This document shows positions 2,453 to 11,450 of a stretch of DNA of 36,358 nucleotides, one piece after another. The DNA is from Moorena sp. SS36440bin_2 (GTDB lineage Bacteria > Cyanobacteriota > Cyanobacteriia > Cyanobacteriales > Coleofasciculaceae), in assembly GCA_011524395.1 (NCBI GenBank), contig WTKN01000132.1:1-36358 (forward strand), given 5' to 3'. The first letter of the stretch is position 1. Every line of letters begins with the position of its first letter. Under the pieces are notes generated by a model that searched no databases, had not been told where the DNA came from, and saw only the letters and a program-made list of their open reading frames with translations. A program made the position numbers and the translations under genes.

Positions 2453-2568
2453 GAAAATTGTTTCAGGTGAACTACAATTTCATCAAACCCTGGGGCTAAA
2501 GCAGTTCAGACCTTGGAAGTTATTGAGATCAGGTGAGTTATAGCCAACTTATAATTGATTGCCCACTT

Positions 2569-2590
2569 GTACCTGAGTTGTACCTGAGTT
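2569..2590. promoter_or_regulatory. Direct repeat upstream of the AAA operon
   Basis: Two adjacent copies of tgtacctgagt (2569-2579, 2580-2590), followed by a partly matching tgggctgagtg, lie about 60-80 bases before the start of the HTH-AAA gene. Adjacent 11-base repeats one helical turn apart would suit a cooperative operator, possibly for the HTH protein itself. This is inference only. Confidence 0.35.
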
Positions 2591-2647
2591 GGGCTGAGTG
2601 ACTATAAAAGATAGTTATAGTTTGAGTAGTTTATCGAACCGACAACT

Positions 2648-3943
2648 ATGTCTCGCTCACTCAGAGTTCATCCAGAGTCTATTGACCAGGTTAAATTAGC
2701 TCTTAAGCGCAACGGTTATCCTCGCCAGAAAGACTTAGCTGAGGAATTGGAGATATCTCTATCAACCCTCAATAATTATCTCAATGGCCGACCTGTCGAT
2801 AACCTGAATTTTCAAGAAATTAGTGAAAAATTGGGGCAAGACTGGAAAGCGATCGCTTTTCTAGATCAAGAAAGCACACCCAGCAATAGCAACGTTAATC
2901 CAGATCCGTGGACACCGGATTTAGATCAGGACGAGTCTATCCCTGACGTTGACTATTATGTTGAACGTCCTCCTATTGAAAGCACTTGTTATCAAACACT
3001 TTTACGTCCAGGTGCCTTGGTGAGAATTAAAGCACCAAGTCTAATGGGGAAGACCTTACTGATAGCTAGAGTGCTGAAAAAGTTGGTTGCCCAGCAGGGC
3101 TATCAAACTGTTTATATTAACCTACACCTGGCTAACCATGCTGACCTTGGCAATCTTAATTCATTACTCAAGTGGTTTAGCTTCTGTGTCAGTGAAAGTT
3201 TAGGATTAGCTAATCGATTAGCTGATTACTGGTACGAAGGATTATCGACCAGTAAAATGGCTTGTACCAACTACTTTGAACGGTATTTGCTAAGGCAGGT
3301 TAACAGGCCAGTAGTCCTATGTTTGGATGAGGTTGACCGAGTTTTTCCTCATCGTGATGTGGCATCGGACTTTTTAGGAATGCTAAGGGCTTGGCATGAG
3401 AAAGCCAAGATGGGTAAACGTTTAGAACGGCTCCGATTAGTGGTAGTTCATTCCACAGAAGTTTATATTCCCCTTAACCTTAACGAATCCCCGTTTAATG
3501 TTGGTGTTCCGATTGAGTTACCGGAATTGACCCAAGAGCAAATTCTTGAATTAGCGCAACAATACCAACTTGATTGTACAGCATCTGAGGTTGAGCAATT
3601 GCAGGGGTTAGTAGGCGGACATCCCTATTTAATTGGCGAATGCTTTAACCATCTCAAATTTAATGGTACTGGTTCCCTAGAGAAGGTATTAAACAATGCT
3701 GCCACCGAAGCAGGGATTTATCGCAATCATCTTCGACACCTATGGCAGATGCTACAGCAACACCAAGCTTTGGCTGATGCTTTTAAAGATGTGATTGAGG
3801 CCAGTTGTCCGATTCCCTTAGAATCCCGATCGGCTTACAAACTACACAGTATGGGATTAGTGAATTTACAAGCACATCAGGTAACTCTCCGTTGTCAGTT
3901 GTATCGGGAGTATTTTCAAGCGCGATTCCAGGAGACCCCATGA
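2648..3943 (+). CDS. HTH-AAA-like ATPase (AAA_35 type)
   Basis: A 431-residue protein. Residues about 20-50 form an XRE-like helix-turn-helix ([20 protein letters not shown]). After an acidic linker comes an AAA-like ATPase domain with a degenerate Walker A (APSLMGKT, 129-136), a Walker B (VVLCLDEVD, 222-230) and a C-terminal helical or winged-helix region. The 'xMGKT' P-loop and overall order match the cyanobacterial AAA_35 (PF14516) family, related to STAND-type signalling ATPases. Its stop overlaps the start of the next gene (ATGA), which encodes a second ATPase of the same type, so the two are probably co-translated. Likely role: nucleotide-switch regulator or sensor; the target is unknown. 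HTH domains of this kind may bind DNA or act as adaptors. Confidence 0.85.
3930..3943 (+). promoter_or_regulatory. AGGAG ribosome binding site with ATGA stop/start overlap
   Basis: AGGAG at 3930-3934 lies 5 bases before ATG 3940, and that ATG overlaps the TGA stop (3941-3943) of the upstream gene. This decides the start of the second ATPase. The longer reading frame opening at 3805 would overlap the upstream gene by 139 bases. Confidence 0.8.
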
Positions 3944-6576
3944 TGGGAACCCAGACTATGCAAATCTATCAAGTAGGCGGCGCATTACCCCTTAATGCTA
4001 GCAGTTATGTCAAGCGTCAGGCCGATGAAGAGTTGTATCAATACCTAAAAGCAGGGGAATTTTGTTATGTCTTAAATTCCCGTCAGATGGGAAAGTCTTC
4101 CCTGAAAGTTCAAACCATAAAACGGTTGCAACAAGAAGACATTGTTTGTGCTTCTATTGATATTACCATGCTGGGGTCGCAACAGATTCCCCCACGGGAA
4201 TGGTATGGCGGTTTGATTAGTGGGTTGGTGTCTGAGTTAGAACTCTACGACAGGTTTGATGAATACCATTGGCTTCAACAGCACCAAAAGATTTCTCCGG
4301 TGCAGTGCTTTGGTAAGTTTATCAAAGAGGTATTGTTTGAATATATTGCTCAACCAATTGTTATTTTTATTGATGAAATCGATAGCGTTCTGCAATTAAG
4401 CTTCAAAGATGACTTCTTTGCCCTAGTTCGAGCCTGTTACAACAAACGGGCAGAAAATTCTGCTTATAATCGCCTTAGTTTTGTGCTTTTAGGGGTGGCT
4501 ACACCGGGGGATTTAATTGAAGATAAAGACCGAACCCCGTTTAATATCGGACGGGCGGTGGAGTTACATGGCTTTCAACCCCATGAAGTTGAGCCGTTAG
4601 TTAGGGGATTGGCGGGACAGGTCAGCAACCCCCAGGCTGTTATCGAGGAAATATTAGACTGGACAGGAGGACAGCCGTTTCTTACCCAAAAGCTGTGTCA
4701 GTTGGTGGTTAGTTCTGCCTCGGTTTTCGATCCCTTAAAACAAGGGGAGAAGGAATGGATTGAGAAATTGGTGCGATCGCATGTCATCTCGAACTGGGAA
4801 GCTACCGATGAGCCAGAGCATTTGAAGACCATACGCGATCGCATTCTTAGTAATGAGCAACGGTCTGCCTACTTGTTGGAATTGTATCAGCAAGTTTGGC
4901 AAGAGGGGGAAGTTGTTGCCAATAACAGTTTTGAGGAAGGTAAGTTACAGTTATCTGGATTAGTAGTCAAGCAGAGAGTTGGAGCTTTTCCAGTTCTTAA
5001 AGTCTATAACCGTATCTATCATCAAGTCTTTAATCAAGACTGGATTGAACAAGAATTAGCTGCATTACGTCCCTATTCGGAAGGGTTTAGGGCTTGGGTG
5101 GCGTCGGGATGTCAGGATGAGTCGCTGTTGTTGCGGGGGAAGGCTCTTAAGGATGCTCAGGCTTGGGCAAAAAGAAAGAATTTAAGTTATTTAGATCAAC
5201 AGTTTTTGGCGGCTAGTGAAAAGAAGGGGATTGAGGAGCAAATCGCTCAAGAAAAGCTGGAAGCAGAATTAGACAGAGAGAGGAAGGATCGGGAAGCGAC
5301 CCATAAGATAAATCAGGTACTAACTGAGGCGAATCGGAAGGCTCAACGGCGAATTCAGATTGGCGCTGTCGTGCTAAGTATAGCTGTGTTGGGAGCAATT
5401 GTTTCAGGAGTAGTGGCAGGAAAGGAAGTGATCAGAGTAGAGCAAGCTAAAGCTGCTCATAAAATAATCAAAGAAGATATCGAAACCATTCATAGGCTCT
5501 CTGAACTTGCTGCAGAACTCCAAAACAAGGGGCTGTCTTCTGAAGCACAAGAGGCATGGTTTCAAGTCAGTAAGTCTACACTAATCCGAGAAGACAAGCG
5601 CAATATCAAGCAAGCCATGCTGTTAGCTTCGATTTCTTTAGCAAATCAGCAACTTAGTCAGAAGTATCAAGAATTTGAACAGGATAGTAAAGCAACCGAA
5701 TGGCGGAATGAGGCTAGGCAAAGGATTAAACAGATAAAGGAAAAAAATCTATTACCCTCACAACCTAAACCAGATGTCCCCGAAGAATGGGCAATTCAGG
5801 TTCATGTCAAAAGAGTAGAAGGGAGCTTGTTGAGAACAGAAGGGAAGATAGAGGAAGCCTTAAAAGCTTACAAGGAAGCCTTTGATATACTTGATACTGC
5901 TTGGCAAAAGTTTCCGAACGTTGATATCGATACAGAAATTCCTATACCTAGCTTTATTCCTCAAGAACAGTTCATTTTATCAACAAATGCCGTAGAAAAT
6001 TTTCATCGAGAATACATTGAGTTACTATCTGAAAACGGTCGAGACTCTCAAATGATCAAAGACTCTCTGTTGAATCACTTCCTAGCTGAACTTCACTTCT
6101 TTATGAAGTCGGGAAACTGGAAAGATGCTGACCTAAAAAATGTTCGTATCATGCTTTACATCGCTGAGCGAGAAAAAAAAGGTTGGCTCGATATCGAACA
6201 TATTGAACAATACTCCTGCCAAAATCTAGGTACTCTTAATACCCTTTGGGTCAAACACTCAGATGGAAAGTTTGGCTTCAGTGTACAAAAGCAGATCTTG
6301 GACACAATTATTGCTGAGCGTGGCTTACCCAAGGGAGAGTATAATGATTTGCATAGGGATGTATGGATAGAGTGGTGGAAAAAAGTAGACTGGTGGATAG
6401 ATGGAAAAAGACTCAACCCGGCAATTTTCAACAAAAACAAAGCGGAGGAAGGACACTTACCCTTGGCACCATGGAACACCAAGGAAAATCGTACTGTGAC
6501 TTTCCGGACAGACCCCCCAGTGACGGATTGGCGCAAGTCTTTTCTTAGTAATCTATTCTCCCGTTGCGACTGGTAG
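3940..6576 (+). CDS. AAA-like ATPase with TM segment and C-terminal GUN4 domain
   Basis: An 878-residue protein from the coupled ATG. Domains in order: AAA_35-type ATPase (about 10-350) with Walker A SRQMGKSS (47-54) and Walker [10 protein letters not shown] (140-148); a charged coiled coil (about 425-470); one transmembrane helix ([21 protein letters not shown], about 473-493); a helical region with a TPR-like pair ([17 protein letters not shown]); and a GUN4-like domain (about 710-855) with [36 protein letters not shown] and [11 protein letters not shown]4 proteins bind tetrapyrroles and stimulate Mg-chelatase; here the domain is the output or sensor end of a membrane-anchored ATPase. It is paired with the HTH-AAA protein. 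The ligand and topology (which side GUN4 is on) are not known. Confidence 0.85.
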
Positions 6577-6658: not shown

Positions 6659-7099
6659 CTAATTATCCCATTCTTCCGGATCATCAACCATGCCGGGATT
6701 AATTAGGGTAATATCATACTCATCCATTTGATCTACTGGATCAGTTGGGGTATTCTCTCGCTTCAGTAGATAATATTTAGCACTGACCTTAGGGGCAAAA
6801 ATTACCTCATCTTCATCTTCGAGATCATGGGCTTGAAGCTTACGACCATTGATTAAAATGCCATTGGCACTAGTCTTACCTTTGAGGTTACCATCAAAAA
6901 TTCGGTAGTAGGGACTGCCATCAGACCGTTTACGCCTTACTAAGGTCGCATGTCGGCGAGACACAAACTTTGAAAACAGGCGGATATCAGACTCTGGATC
7001 TCTACCGATAGAATATACCTCCTCTTCCAAAGGAATCTGCTTGCTTCCTTTGTCATCCTCAATAATAAGTAAATGGTTGTGGTCAGATTGTGTAGCCAT
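6659..7099 (-). CDS. FHA-domain protein
   Basis: A 146-residue protein from ATG 7099; an in-frame TTG at 7138 would add 13 residues but has no better ribosome binding site. The central FHA fold is clear: YSIGRDPESDIRL, then SRRHATLV, and the NGILINGRKL turn near the end. The GR, SxxH and NG residues bind phosphothreonine peptides in this family. It is a cytosolic phospho-dependent adaptor, presumably for a Ser/Thr kinase encoded elsewhere, as none is in the window. The C-terminus is acidic (DPVDQMDEYDITLINPG) and includes a threonine that could itself be phosphorylated. It lies on the same strand as, and 281 bases downstream of, the copper ATPase, with no evidence of co-transcription. Confidence 0.85.
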   Translation of the reverse strand: MATQSDHNHLLIIEDDKGSKQIPLEEEVYSIGRDPESDIRLFSKFVSRRHATLVRRKRSDGSPYYRIFDGNLKGKTSANGILINGRKLQAHDLEDEDEVIFAPKVSAKYYLLKRENTPTDPVDQMDEYDITLINPGMVDDPEEWDN

Positions 7100-7380
7100 G
7101 AATCGCTCGTGATCAAAAGGGTAATTGGTTGAGAACAATACTCTTATTTACTTACATTGGCACAGGTCTCAACCAGCTTGCGACTGACTTAAGGACTGAT
7201 TTACCTATAAAACTCTCCTGAGTGCTCAGCATTACCTGATTATCCCTTGAATGAATAAAAGTAAACTACCAGACGCGAAGCTTACCCTAAGGTGGTTCTT
7301 TCCAACTACCAAAAGAAGTATAGGCTTCTTACACCTTGCTGCTGTGGATGGTTTACTATAGGTATTCAAGCGGACTTGAT

Positions 7381-9992: not shown

Positions 9993-11450
9993 TTACATCC
10001 CGGTAAGGAGTTCCTTAAAAGCCCGAGTTCTGCTATGCTTAGAGTCAAGCCATCCCAGATCGACTGCATCAGCCAAACTCAGTCCCATACCTTTCAAGAA
10101 ACGCGCGGTACGGCGCAACAACACTGTCTGAACCTCAGTTTTATTCATGTACCGGGAAATTTCCTTGTCTGTACCCCGAGCAAGGATGTTTTTAGCAGCG
10201 TTGTGGTCAGCCTGCAACACGACCCCATCAAATCTGGTAAAGGTGTCCCCGCTCCTTTTCCCCAATAGGGTTCCAGTTACGGAGTCAACTTGCGACGTGT
10301 AACTTGGTTGAACTTCTGTCACAACCGAACCAGTCCAGTTAGCCCATTTTTGCAAGGAATCCCGCATTACTCCCTTCATCCAGCTATTAAGCTTGCGGGA
10401 CATGGCCTTAGACTGACGTTTATTCCTGATTGGCTGTGTTAAATCTTCAGCAAAAACTTTTAGTGATTCCCCATTGAAAAGGGATTGAGAGGCGGCTCCT
10501 ATAATAGCGGTGAGTTCTGATTGATTTTTTCTGTATCGGCGATTTTCTGTTTTTCTGGTTAGATTATTTTCTAGTATTCGAGCAGATTTAGCTGGGTCTA
10601 TTTTTTCCAACTTTCTGTGAAGCGCCCAAAGCTTTCCTTTATTGCGGTTCTTGGCACATATGCGGTCAGATTTCTTGGTTGCTACTTTACCTAAGTTTTT
10701 CCCGTGCGCCTGGCCATCTGAATCATAGAAAGCCTCAGTGTATCCTTTATCTACTCCGACAGTACGGCGGTTGGCAGGGATTTCTACGGTGCCGTGGTCT
10801 ACTGAAAAGTGAATCTCAAACCTTTGCAGTAATTGATTATATATTAGTCTAATCTGACCCTTTATTTTGCGATTAGACCTGACAAGTATCCTATTTCTTT
10901 TTCCTCTTTTGAGTCCAGCTAATTCTAGTTGATAAGTATTCCGGGAGAGTCGCTTACAGCTATATCCCCCTTGTTGGTAAACTATCTGATTTTTGACCCA
11001 AGAATGCCCTCTCTGAAACTCCTTTCTGACCAACCTGTGTAGGAGGGGATTGTCCAGGAAAGCTAAAGTCTTTAGTTGTTTGAAAAGTTCCTTTCTTGTC
11101 TTTTGGTTATCTTTCCCGGAAAACCTTTTATAGACCTTCTTTATAACTGCCTCAGTACAACCAGCCTGGCTCGCTGTAATGGCTTTAGCTACATCACTTA
11201 CCGTCCATTCCATTAGTTTGGAGGGCAGTCCTAAGGACTCAGGAGTCCTAAAGCTTCTGACCTCTGGGTAGGCTTTTTTCCAGTCAAGCTTCCAGTGATT
11301 GACACTACCTAGCTTGTTATAAGATTCAGAGCGGACGATGCCAAGTTTTTTCATGGTAGACAATAACTCAGCTTCAACCGACTCCGACATCCCTATCACA
11401 GGGATGACTTGAGTCGATATCTTCTTTGTTACGCCTACTTTCTTTGACAT
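9993..11450 (-). CDS. tnpB: TnpB-like RNA-guided nuclease (IS200/IS605-type), no zinc-finger cysteines
   Basis: A 485-residue protein with the RuvC-like triad of TnpB: D234 (VGVDKGYTEAF), E335 (KVFAEDLTQP) and D415 (LQADHNAAKNIL). TnpB proteins are RNA-guided DNA nucleases carried by IS200/IS605 and IS1341 elements. The insertion between E335 and D415 normally holds four zinc-binding cysteines; here residues 380-425 contain none (TSQVDSVTGTLLGKRSGDTF follows the usual scaffold). The protein has only three cysteines, at 98, 165 and 265. No TnpA is adjacent, so this is a solitary IS1341-like copy. The frame is intact and may be functional. It is on the same strand as the copper ATPase and upstream of it. 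Confidence 0.85.
   Translation of the reverse strand: MSKKVGVTKKISTQVIPVIGMSESVEAELLSTMKKLGIVRSESYNKLGSVNHWKLDWKKAYPEVRSFRTPESLGLPSKLMEWTVSDVAKAITASQAGCTEAVIKKVYKRFSGKDNQKTRKELFKQLKTLAFLDNPLLHRLVRKEFQRGHSWVKNQIVYQQGGYSCKRLSRNTYQLELAGLKRGKRNRILVRSNRKIKGQIRLIYNQLLQRFEIHFSVDHGTVEIPANRRTVGVDKGYTEAFYDSDGQAHGKNLGKVATKKSDRICAKNRNKGKLWALHRKLEKIDPAKSARILENNLTRKTENRRYRKNQSELTAIIGAASQSLFNGESLKVFAEDLTQPIRNKRQSKAMSRKLNSWMKGVMRDSLQKWANWTGSVVTEVQPSYTSQVDSVTGTLLGKRSGDTFTRFDGVVLQADHNAAKNILARGTDKEISRYMNKTEVQTVLLRRTARFLKGMGLSLADAVDLGWLDSKHSRTRAFKELLTGM

Follow-up and report, generated by a model that had tools for sequence, protein, structure and literature searches.

A putative split STAND switch in Moorena: an HTH-AAA_35 and AAA_35-GUN4 gene pair with exchangeable ends and a promoter repeat array

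Contig WTKN01000132.1 of the cyanobacterium Moorena sp. SS36440bin_2 (assembly GCA_011524395.1) was analyzed over 36,358 nucleotides, referred to here as the window. It carries two overlapping genes, A and B, both encoding ATPases of the AAA_35 family (Table 1). Pfam profiles assigned to protein A a helix-turn-helix (HTH) domain (HTH_3, residues 23-63, E 3.6e-5, 24.1 bits versus a cut-off of 23), followed by a full-length AAA_35 module (PF14516, residues 100-424, E 4.6e-128). The AAA_35 module of B (E 9.2e-33) was more diverged than that of A, and a GUN4 domain (PF05419, E 7.2e-25) was found near the C-terminus. Three Moorena records matched the window at 92-95% identity in their best segment, and the pair persists at one locus in three other Moorena records. 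An NCBIfam search returned chance-level matches only, and a PDB sequence search with A yielded nothing at E 0.01.

Table 1. Features of the A-B locus (window positions).
Feature	Position	Strand	Remarks
Outer, degenerate repeat pair	2535..2556	+	1-mismatch match to GASTTRTRNCYGASTTRTRNYT
Three 11-bp direct repeats, candidate operator of the HTH protein	2564..2596	+	unit GA[CG]TT[GA]T[AG]NCT; ends 51 bases before the ATG of A
Gene A	2648..3943	+	431 aa; HTH and AAA_35 STAND-like ATPase, without tail
HTH part of A	2648..2872	+	75 residues
Gene B	3940..6576	+	878 aa; ATGA overlap with A
AAA_35 ATPase of B	3979..5016	+	residues 14-359; Pfam and motifs
Conserved post-ATPase segment and charged coil of B	5065..5346	+	residues 376-469; common to B proteins with other tails
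Single predicted transmembrane helix of B	5347..5433	+	residues 470-498; hydropathy
Helical, possibly TPR-like region of B	5434..6054	+	residues 499-705; TPR_11 E 0.052; low-confidence model
GUN4 domain of B without the NxLR ligand motif	6085..6468	+	residues 716-843

A preliminary description of this DNA had proposed a translationally coupled pair of ATPases, one with a DNA-binding-type domain and the other STAND-like, with a membrane anchor and a terminal GUN4 domain. Its coordinates and domain calls were borne out by the Pfam profiles and by the one hydrophobic stretch of B, and the two genes were found to be adjacent in related genomes as well. The promoter repeat array was overlooked there, as was the fact that GUN4 is one among several exchangeable tails. 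The ATG of B forms an ATGA joint with the TGA of A (3941-3943), and B ends with a TAG at 6574-6576. The list of open reading frames contained a longer frame of B that starts with TTG at position 3805 and would have 139 bases in common with A; translation more probably begins at the ATG at 3940 (or 3943).

The pair belongs to a family with several members in the same genome. A profile search in which all candidates were scored gave 28 AAA_35 matches: 13 of the A type (398-503 bits), among which C364 contains an internal stop, two that are parts of a single additional A gene (C352), 11 of the B type (82-121 bits) and two weak remnants. Eight B genes directly followed an A gene of the same orientation, which in one case was the broken C352. 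With genes termed judgeable when enough sequence was available on the relevant side, 8/12 judgeable A genes and 8/9 judgeable B genes were paired. The ends of these pairs varied on both sides, combining HTH on A with GUN4 on B, LuxR-type HTH with GAF-PAS, kinase with WD40, HTH with CHAT (A broken), and others. AAA_35 was present in 173/242 genomes of the class and in 94/121 genera, and in 0/14 control genomes. Copy numbers in the relatives are lower bounds, since only 5 or 8 candidates per genome were scored in these surveys. The loci of relatives were picked by similarity to the tail or linker of the window, and the mix of ends is therefore no census. In 39 A-B pairs from the own genome and from relatives, the N-terminus of A was HTH, LuxR-type or sigma-like HTH, CHAT, TIR, Ser/Thr kinase or unassigned, and the C-terminus of B was GUN4, WD40, CHAT, GAF-PAS or unassigned.

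The same exchange was evident when GUN4-tailed B genes were considered by themselves. A total of 20 was collected, two of them cut by contig ends, and A lay directly upstream in 14 of the 18 judgeable cases. The N-termini of these 14 A proteins were HTH (6), CHAT (4), TIR (2), sigma-like (1) and unassigned (1). Two GUN4 loci (L094 in G065, ATPases gone; L098 in G042, no ATPase) do not represent B genes and were excluded from this count. A His/Cys dyad, which we take to be the CHAT dyad motif, was used for scoring CHAT domains on both proteins, and both residues were present in 5/5 aligned A-CHATs covering both sites. One TIR-type A matched the PADLOC ThsB model (E 8.9e-59). At a further locus (L164/L187, G236:C81:28000-37500), a repeat array heads a row of genes made up of caspase-AAA_35, HTH-AAA_35 and several frames of the B type.

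In a quick tree of the B ATPases (L106, too short, was left out), window B and two orthologues, all with GUN4, were sister to a Symploca CHAT pair (SH-aLRT 99), and in the next clade GUN4 and CHAT tails were mixed again. The CHAT-tailed B of Symploca shared 72% identity with window B over residues 7-581, and the CHAT paralogue of the own genome shared 62% over residues 10-662. In these comparisons, identity dropped past about residue 500, and the terminal domains were unlike. The distances among A proteins correlated with those among their B partners, with r 0.89 for the 39 pairs and r 0.92 for the eight pairs of the own genome; 0 of 10,000 permutations reached as high a value in either set. 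Since the own-genome pairs share one genome, species effects play no part in the latter correlation.

Nucleotide-binding motifs were kept in both proteins. Window A and window B each have an MGK[TS] P-loop and a DE Walker B, in line with the common ATPase type proposed earlier. Among the 39 pairs, the GK[TS] of the P-loop was found in 37 A proteins (the alignment has a gap there in the other two) and in all 39 B proteins. The Walker B Glu was present in 39/39 B and in 25/39 A (N in 10, D in 3 and K in 1 of the others). After the core of the nucleoside triphosphatase (NTPase), the Pro of GG[HN]P was present in 39/39 A and GGQP in 39/39 B, presumably the GxP motif of STAND proteins. An AlphaFold2 model of A (mean pLDDT 74, pTM 0.44) aligned from about residue 100 to 431 best with 2qen (Z 15.8, root-mean-square deviation 5.0, 299 residues), comprising NTPase, helical and winged-helix parts. 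The STAND proteins CED-4 (Z 13.8), RPP1 (13.5) and Roq1 (13.2) also aligned; since ORC/Cdc6 chains scored similarly (up to Z 14.8), these values place A in the ORC/STAND group as a whole. The modelled fold of A is STAND-like, which favors the STAND part of the preliminary description. The low-confidence model of B showed a helix at residues 417-471 in the coil and further helices at 499-705, and its best rows were ORC chains (Z about 14), 2qen (12.8) and Avs3 (11.3); it was not used for the GUN4 fold. The sequence family of B suggests that it, too, belongs to the STAND class.

A strongly hydrophobic helix after the ATPase was predicted in 44 of 56 B frames, while two frames were too short and ten had no such helix, several of the latter being cut by contig ends or containing masked letters. 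Positively charged residues flanking a membrane helix tend to lie on the cytoplasmic side (positive-inside rule). In the 44 frames, the N-terminal flank had more Lys and Arg than the C-terminal flank in 37, an equal number in seven and fewer in none. Taken with this rule, the charge distribution predicts the ATPase inside and the tail, GUN4 in the window, outside the cytoplasm, across the membrane from the ATPase.

Binding of porphyrin and bilin by GUN4 of Synechocystis involves Phe196, Asn211, Arg214 and the LxNxLR motif according to PMC10156173 and PMC8967248, and the exchange W192A changes porphyrin binding (PMC8967248). Paralogues of GUN4 without the Asn required for bilin binding are described in the former paper (PMC10156173), and GUN4 fusions were predicted in general to sense tetrapyrrole in PMC7159879. 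The NxLR motif was absent from all 20 aligned GUN4-tailed B proteins (that of the window and 19 others), and the canonical GUN4 of the own genome (C112) has kept it as LSNQLR. The window tail matched solved GUN4 chains (1y6i, 1z3x) by sequence and keeps GHLPL just ahead of the NxLR position; in the pairwise match to 1y6i, the equivalent of Trp192 is kept and that of Phe196 is Val. The FG[FY]xxQ core was kept in 20/20 B tails, including tails only 30-47% identical to that of the window. No match to GUN4_N (PF16416) was found in B by Pfam, whereas the domain is present in the canonical copy of the genome.

The ratio of nonsynonymous to synonymous rates (dN/dS), determined for the window and three Moorena orthologues, rose along the pair. 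It was 0.09 for the HTH and 0.06 for the ATPase of A, and 0.12, 0.16, 0.35 and 0.66 for the ATPase, coil, transmembrane-helical part and GUN4 domain of B, respectively; these are simple Nei-Gojobori rates from four sequences each with few substitutions. The short C-terminus of B (residues 851-878) gave 2.42 on almost no synonymous change. For the canonical GUN4 of the genus, calculated from a partly different set of Moorena genomes, the domain gave 0.16 and the full-length protein 0.31. The GUN4 tail of B does not look like the cofactor of Mg-chelatase. A PADLOC match to PD-T4-6, which covered only positions 312-433 of the 450 of the model, was considered as evidence for defence and rejected because the canonical GUN4 and four other GUN4 proteins of the own genome match the same part of the model. 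Neither 'PD-T4-6' nor 'GUN4' occurs in the main text of PMC9519451, reportedly the source of that system.

The own genome has seven other GUN4 genes (C112, C85, C216, C276, C288, C337 and C206; L055-L061), namely one canonical, two caspase-GUN4, one kinase-WD40-GUN4, one EAD1-GUN4 and two without another Pfam domain. In G042 (L098, 4635-5690), a helical-GUN4 frame stands free without an ATPase. In G065 (C9; L094, 2950-5609), an IS605-type OrfB gene takes the place of A from codon 40 onward and of B up to residue 484, leaving the array, the HTH start and a frameshifted tail.

The HTH gene of the window is preceded by direct repeats of 11 base pairs (bp) (Table 1). The array is conserved in Moorena and Symploca and is the longest conserved upstream stretch in the Symploca alignment. 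In the own genome, a 22-base pattern with at most one mismatch was confined to the window and the second HTH-AAA_35 gene, C352; a stricter pattern with at most three mismatches gave 3 sites versus 2 for the reversed control. In 20 genomes of the family, 37 pattern matches were obtained versus 2 for the reversed control. Fifteen of the 37 lay at arrays known before the pattern was written (four arrays count twice) and 22 were new; loci were drawn for 30 of the 37, among them 18 of the new sites. The pattern led to five further HTH-AAA_35 loci (L152, L154, L165, L167, L177).

Periodicity was also scored over the upstream regions, with genes having fewer than 150 upstream bases (200 for controls) and duplicate N-termini dropped. 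Strong 11-bp periodicity (score of 15 or more) was found upstream of 12/13 strong-HTH genes, all known apart from the pattern, versus 3/33 HTH-less A genes (Fisher p 1.4e-7). The distance from the end of the array stretch to the start codon was 44-56 bases in ten of these 12. The set of 13 excludes seven pattern-only genes (L182 with two, L183-L187), 3/7 of which reach 15, and seven genes with weaker HTH types scoring below 60 (L203-L207, L209, L213), 1/7 of which does. When all 27 HTH genes were compared with the 33 controls, a rank test gave p 5e-5. In the sole exception of the 13 (L194 = L121, G065), an IS605-type OrfB gene separates a good array from the gene; this OrfB gene (G065:C6:57050-58663, L170/L121) lies between the array and the HTH-AAA_35 gene of a CHAT pair. 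In four Moorena genomes, an HTH-NB-ARC protein has an N-terminus with about 50% identity to the HTH of A, and an array with slightly different units precedes the HTH-NB-ARC gene in Moorena genomes. A 1-mismatch match to the array was also seen upstream of a NACHT-type frame of 311 residues (L157/L189, G014:C11), which hints at a third STAND family. The HTH of A may be the protein that binds the array, and the HTH version of the pair probably controls at least its own promoter.

Further genes surround the pair. A TPR protein is encoded upstream (845-2074) and an FHA protein downstream (6659-7138), and both stay beside the pair in two records of the same genus (L092, L093). A few kb from the pair, a TnpB-like frame with a Cas12f1-like TNB domain lies on the minus strand (9993-11450).

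A and B may together constitute a split, membrane-anchored and self-regulated STAND switch of the NLR-like kind, a proposal to which we give an even chance of being right. B would be the membrane-anchored receptor half, with the AAA_35 module in the cytoplasm followed by one transmembrane helix, and its exchangeable tail, helical-GUN4 in the window, would face the periplasm or the thylakoid lumen. There, the tail may meet a ligand that is probably not a tetrapyrrole held in the canonical manner. The ATPase of B would then change state and assemble with the ATPase of its cognate A, whose N-terminus would carry the output, an HTH here where sister pairs have CHAT, TIR or kinase. This HTH would bind the 11-bp direct repeats of the operon's own promoter, so that one output would be control of its own expression; the switch seems to act on its own promoter rather than on chlorophyll synthesis. 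The company of the sister pairs and the work of Kaur et al. (PMC7159879, PMC8195603) suggest a possible role in stress, cell death or the response to invaders. The single-chain HTH-NB-ARC proteins and the split pair seem to realize the same scheme in two ways, in the order output, switch and sensor. The wider proposal of a transmembrane two-polypeptide NLR-like receptor is put forward only tentatively and on the doubtful side. In it, one STAND ATPase with an exchangeable sensor facing outward would signal through the membrane to another that bears an exchangeable output, and the HTH form of this output would travel with its own 11-bp operator, as a self-controlled cassette, across the AAA_35 and NB-ARC (perhaps also NACHT) families of STAND proteins.

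Several observations weigh against the split switch. Four of the 18 judgeable GUN4-tailed B genes had no A directly upstream, one of them (L109) having a caspase-type A at a distance of 1.8 kb, and 4/12 judgeable A genes of the own genome were unpaired. In some B proteins the tail is CHAT, a domain of the effector type, which makes it less clear-cut to equate tail with sensor. The co-divergence of A and B can stem from joint inheritance of linked genes, which gives the same correlation; it therefore documents a lasting partnership and not contact. The topology was predicted from hydropathy and the charge of the flanks, a count that the charged coil ahead of the helix may bias, and a GUN4, CHAT or WD40 domain outside the cytoplasm would be unusual. 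The AlphaFold2 model of B was poor (mean pLDDT 57, below 50 in the GUN4 part). Regarding the array, the score threshold (15) and the period (11) were both chosen once the window had been seen, the 13 genes include orthologues, and another period between 7 and 16 scored higher in 4/13 and tied in one more. Of the 18 new sites with a locus, only seven immediately preceded an A gene of the AAA_35 family (HTH-AAA_35 in five cases, caspase-AAA_35 in one) or an HTH-NB-ARC gene, and the pattern therefore also occurs elsewhere in the relatives. Among the other eleven, one lay about 1 kb upstream of an HTH-AAA_35 gene, one was separated from such a gene by OrfB and one was near a NACHT-type frame, while eight had no such neighbor in the locus.

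The most serious rival explanation reverses the roles, with A as an ATP-dependent autoregulator and the tail of B as an effector, toxin-like or a cell-death module, that is made or activated on derepression. It agrees with the replacement of GUN4 by CHAT in near relatives, with the presence of both His and Cys in 3/5 aligned B-CHATs and with the autoregulatory appearance of the array. However, the His is lost in the other two B-CHATs, other clades have CHAT or TIR on A and still GUN4 on B, and the tail would sit outside the cytoplasm. We know of no catalytic activity for GUN4, which likewise speaks against a payload role, and this explanation is considered unlikely. An ordinary envelope- or nutrient-sensing transcription switch without a role in conflict, to which we assign a rather low probability, would account for an HTH output joined to a membrane half, for the persistence of the locus and of its TPR and FHA neighbors in other Moorena records, and for the commonness of AAA_35 in the class. 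The TIR and CHAT domains at the output position of sister pairs, the weakly constrained tail and the absence of any array site at up to one mismatch beyond the window and C352 in the own genome speak against it.

The tetrapyrrole- or light-linked part of the preliminary description, in which the GUN4 tail would bind porphyrin or bilin and report the photosynthetic state to the HTH partner, is not supported and appears quite improbable. Family membership by Pfam and by the match to solved chains, the FG[FY]xxQ core, GHLPL and the retained Trp192 equivalent are in its favor. Against these stand the lack of NxLR in 20/20 tails (GUN4 paralogues without the Asn being known from PMC10156173), Val in place of Phe196, the tail predicted outside, a dN/dS of 0.66 versus 0.16 for the canonical domain, and the presence in the same genome of a separate canonical copy that has both GUN4_N and the motif. 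The conflict part of that description fared better, as TIR and CHAT on the partner N-terminus in sister pairs give the family a conflict-style setting. We consider it highly improbable that the ATPase pair is functional and its GUN4 tail only a leftover in decay. The weak constraint of the tail, the loss of both ATPase parts next to a frameshifted tail in G065 and the free-standing helical-GUN4 frame of G042 would fit such decay, but the core is kept in 20/20 tails, among them those with only 30-47% identity to the window tail.

Two-gene STAND systems are already known. The nSTAND2 system, as presented by Kaur et al. 2021 (PMC8195603), resembles the pair in being a two-gene operon of two STAND NTPases, one of them fused to variable modules. 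One NTPase of nSTAND2 is eroded and carries GT4 or HEPN effectors (PMC8195603), whereas the window pair keeps P-loop and Walker B in both proteins and gave no Pfam match to GT4 or HEPN at E up to 1. B carries the tail and yet has the better-conserved nucleotide-binding motifs, the reverse of nSTAND2. As far as nSTAND2 is described there, the AAA_35 pairs also differ in that both ends vary, most B proteins have a transmembrane helix and the tails are GUN4, WD40, CHAT or GAF-PAS. The Moorena HTH-NB-ARC proteins (own C417/L201; L188/L198-L200) share with A the HTH type, the 11-bp array upstream and the order of output and switch, but they are single chains of about 1,190-1,209 residues with NB-ARC in place of AAA_35, and a WD40 tail was seen in the G065 copy only. 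Canonical GUN4 (1y6i, 1z3x; own C112), the Mg-chelatase cofactor, has the family PF05419 in common with the tail of B, which differs in lacking GUN4_N and NxLR, in its fusion to a membrane ATPase and in its weaker constraint.

A STAND family named Npun2340/2341 was reportedly introduced by Leipe et al. in 2004. It is listed in the MNS clade in PMC8195603. The adjacent numbers suggest two neighboring STAND genes of Nostoc, which may be related to the present AAA_35 family or even belong to it. Sigma-factor-like AAA_35 proteins from a cyanobacterial survey (PMC11119718) combine, like A, a DNA-binding-type domain with AAA_35; the available text treats AAA_35 as an accessory domain and does not mention a partner gene, a tail or an array. 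A literature search, with most subscription papers outside its scope, gave no description of the AAA_35 pair, its membrane half, the exchange of both ends or the array.

In STAND and NLR receptors, a single chain normally comprises sensor, switch and effector. If the proposed switch is correct, the AAA_35 pairs would represent a natural split of this arrangement, present as eight pairs in one genome, that lets sensor and output evolve separately. They would also lend themselves to studying how each of two STAND ATPases recognizes its own partner and no other. The repeat array provides a cheap and direct test case for self-regulation of cyanobacterial HTH-STAND genes. Finally, the annotation 'GUN4' in a fusion protein need not mean 'tetrapyrrole sensor'.

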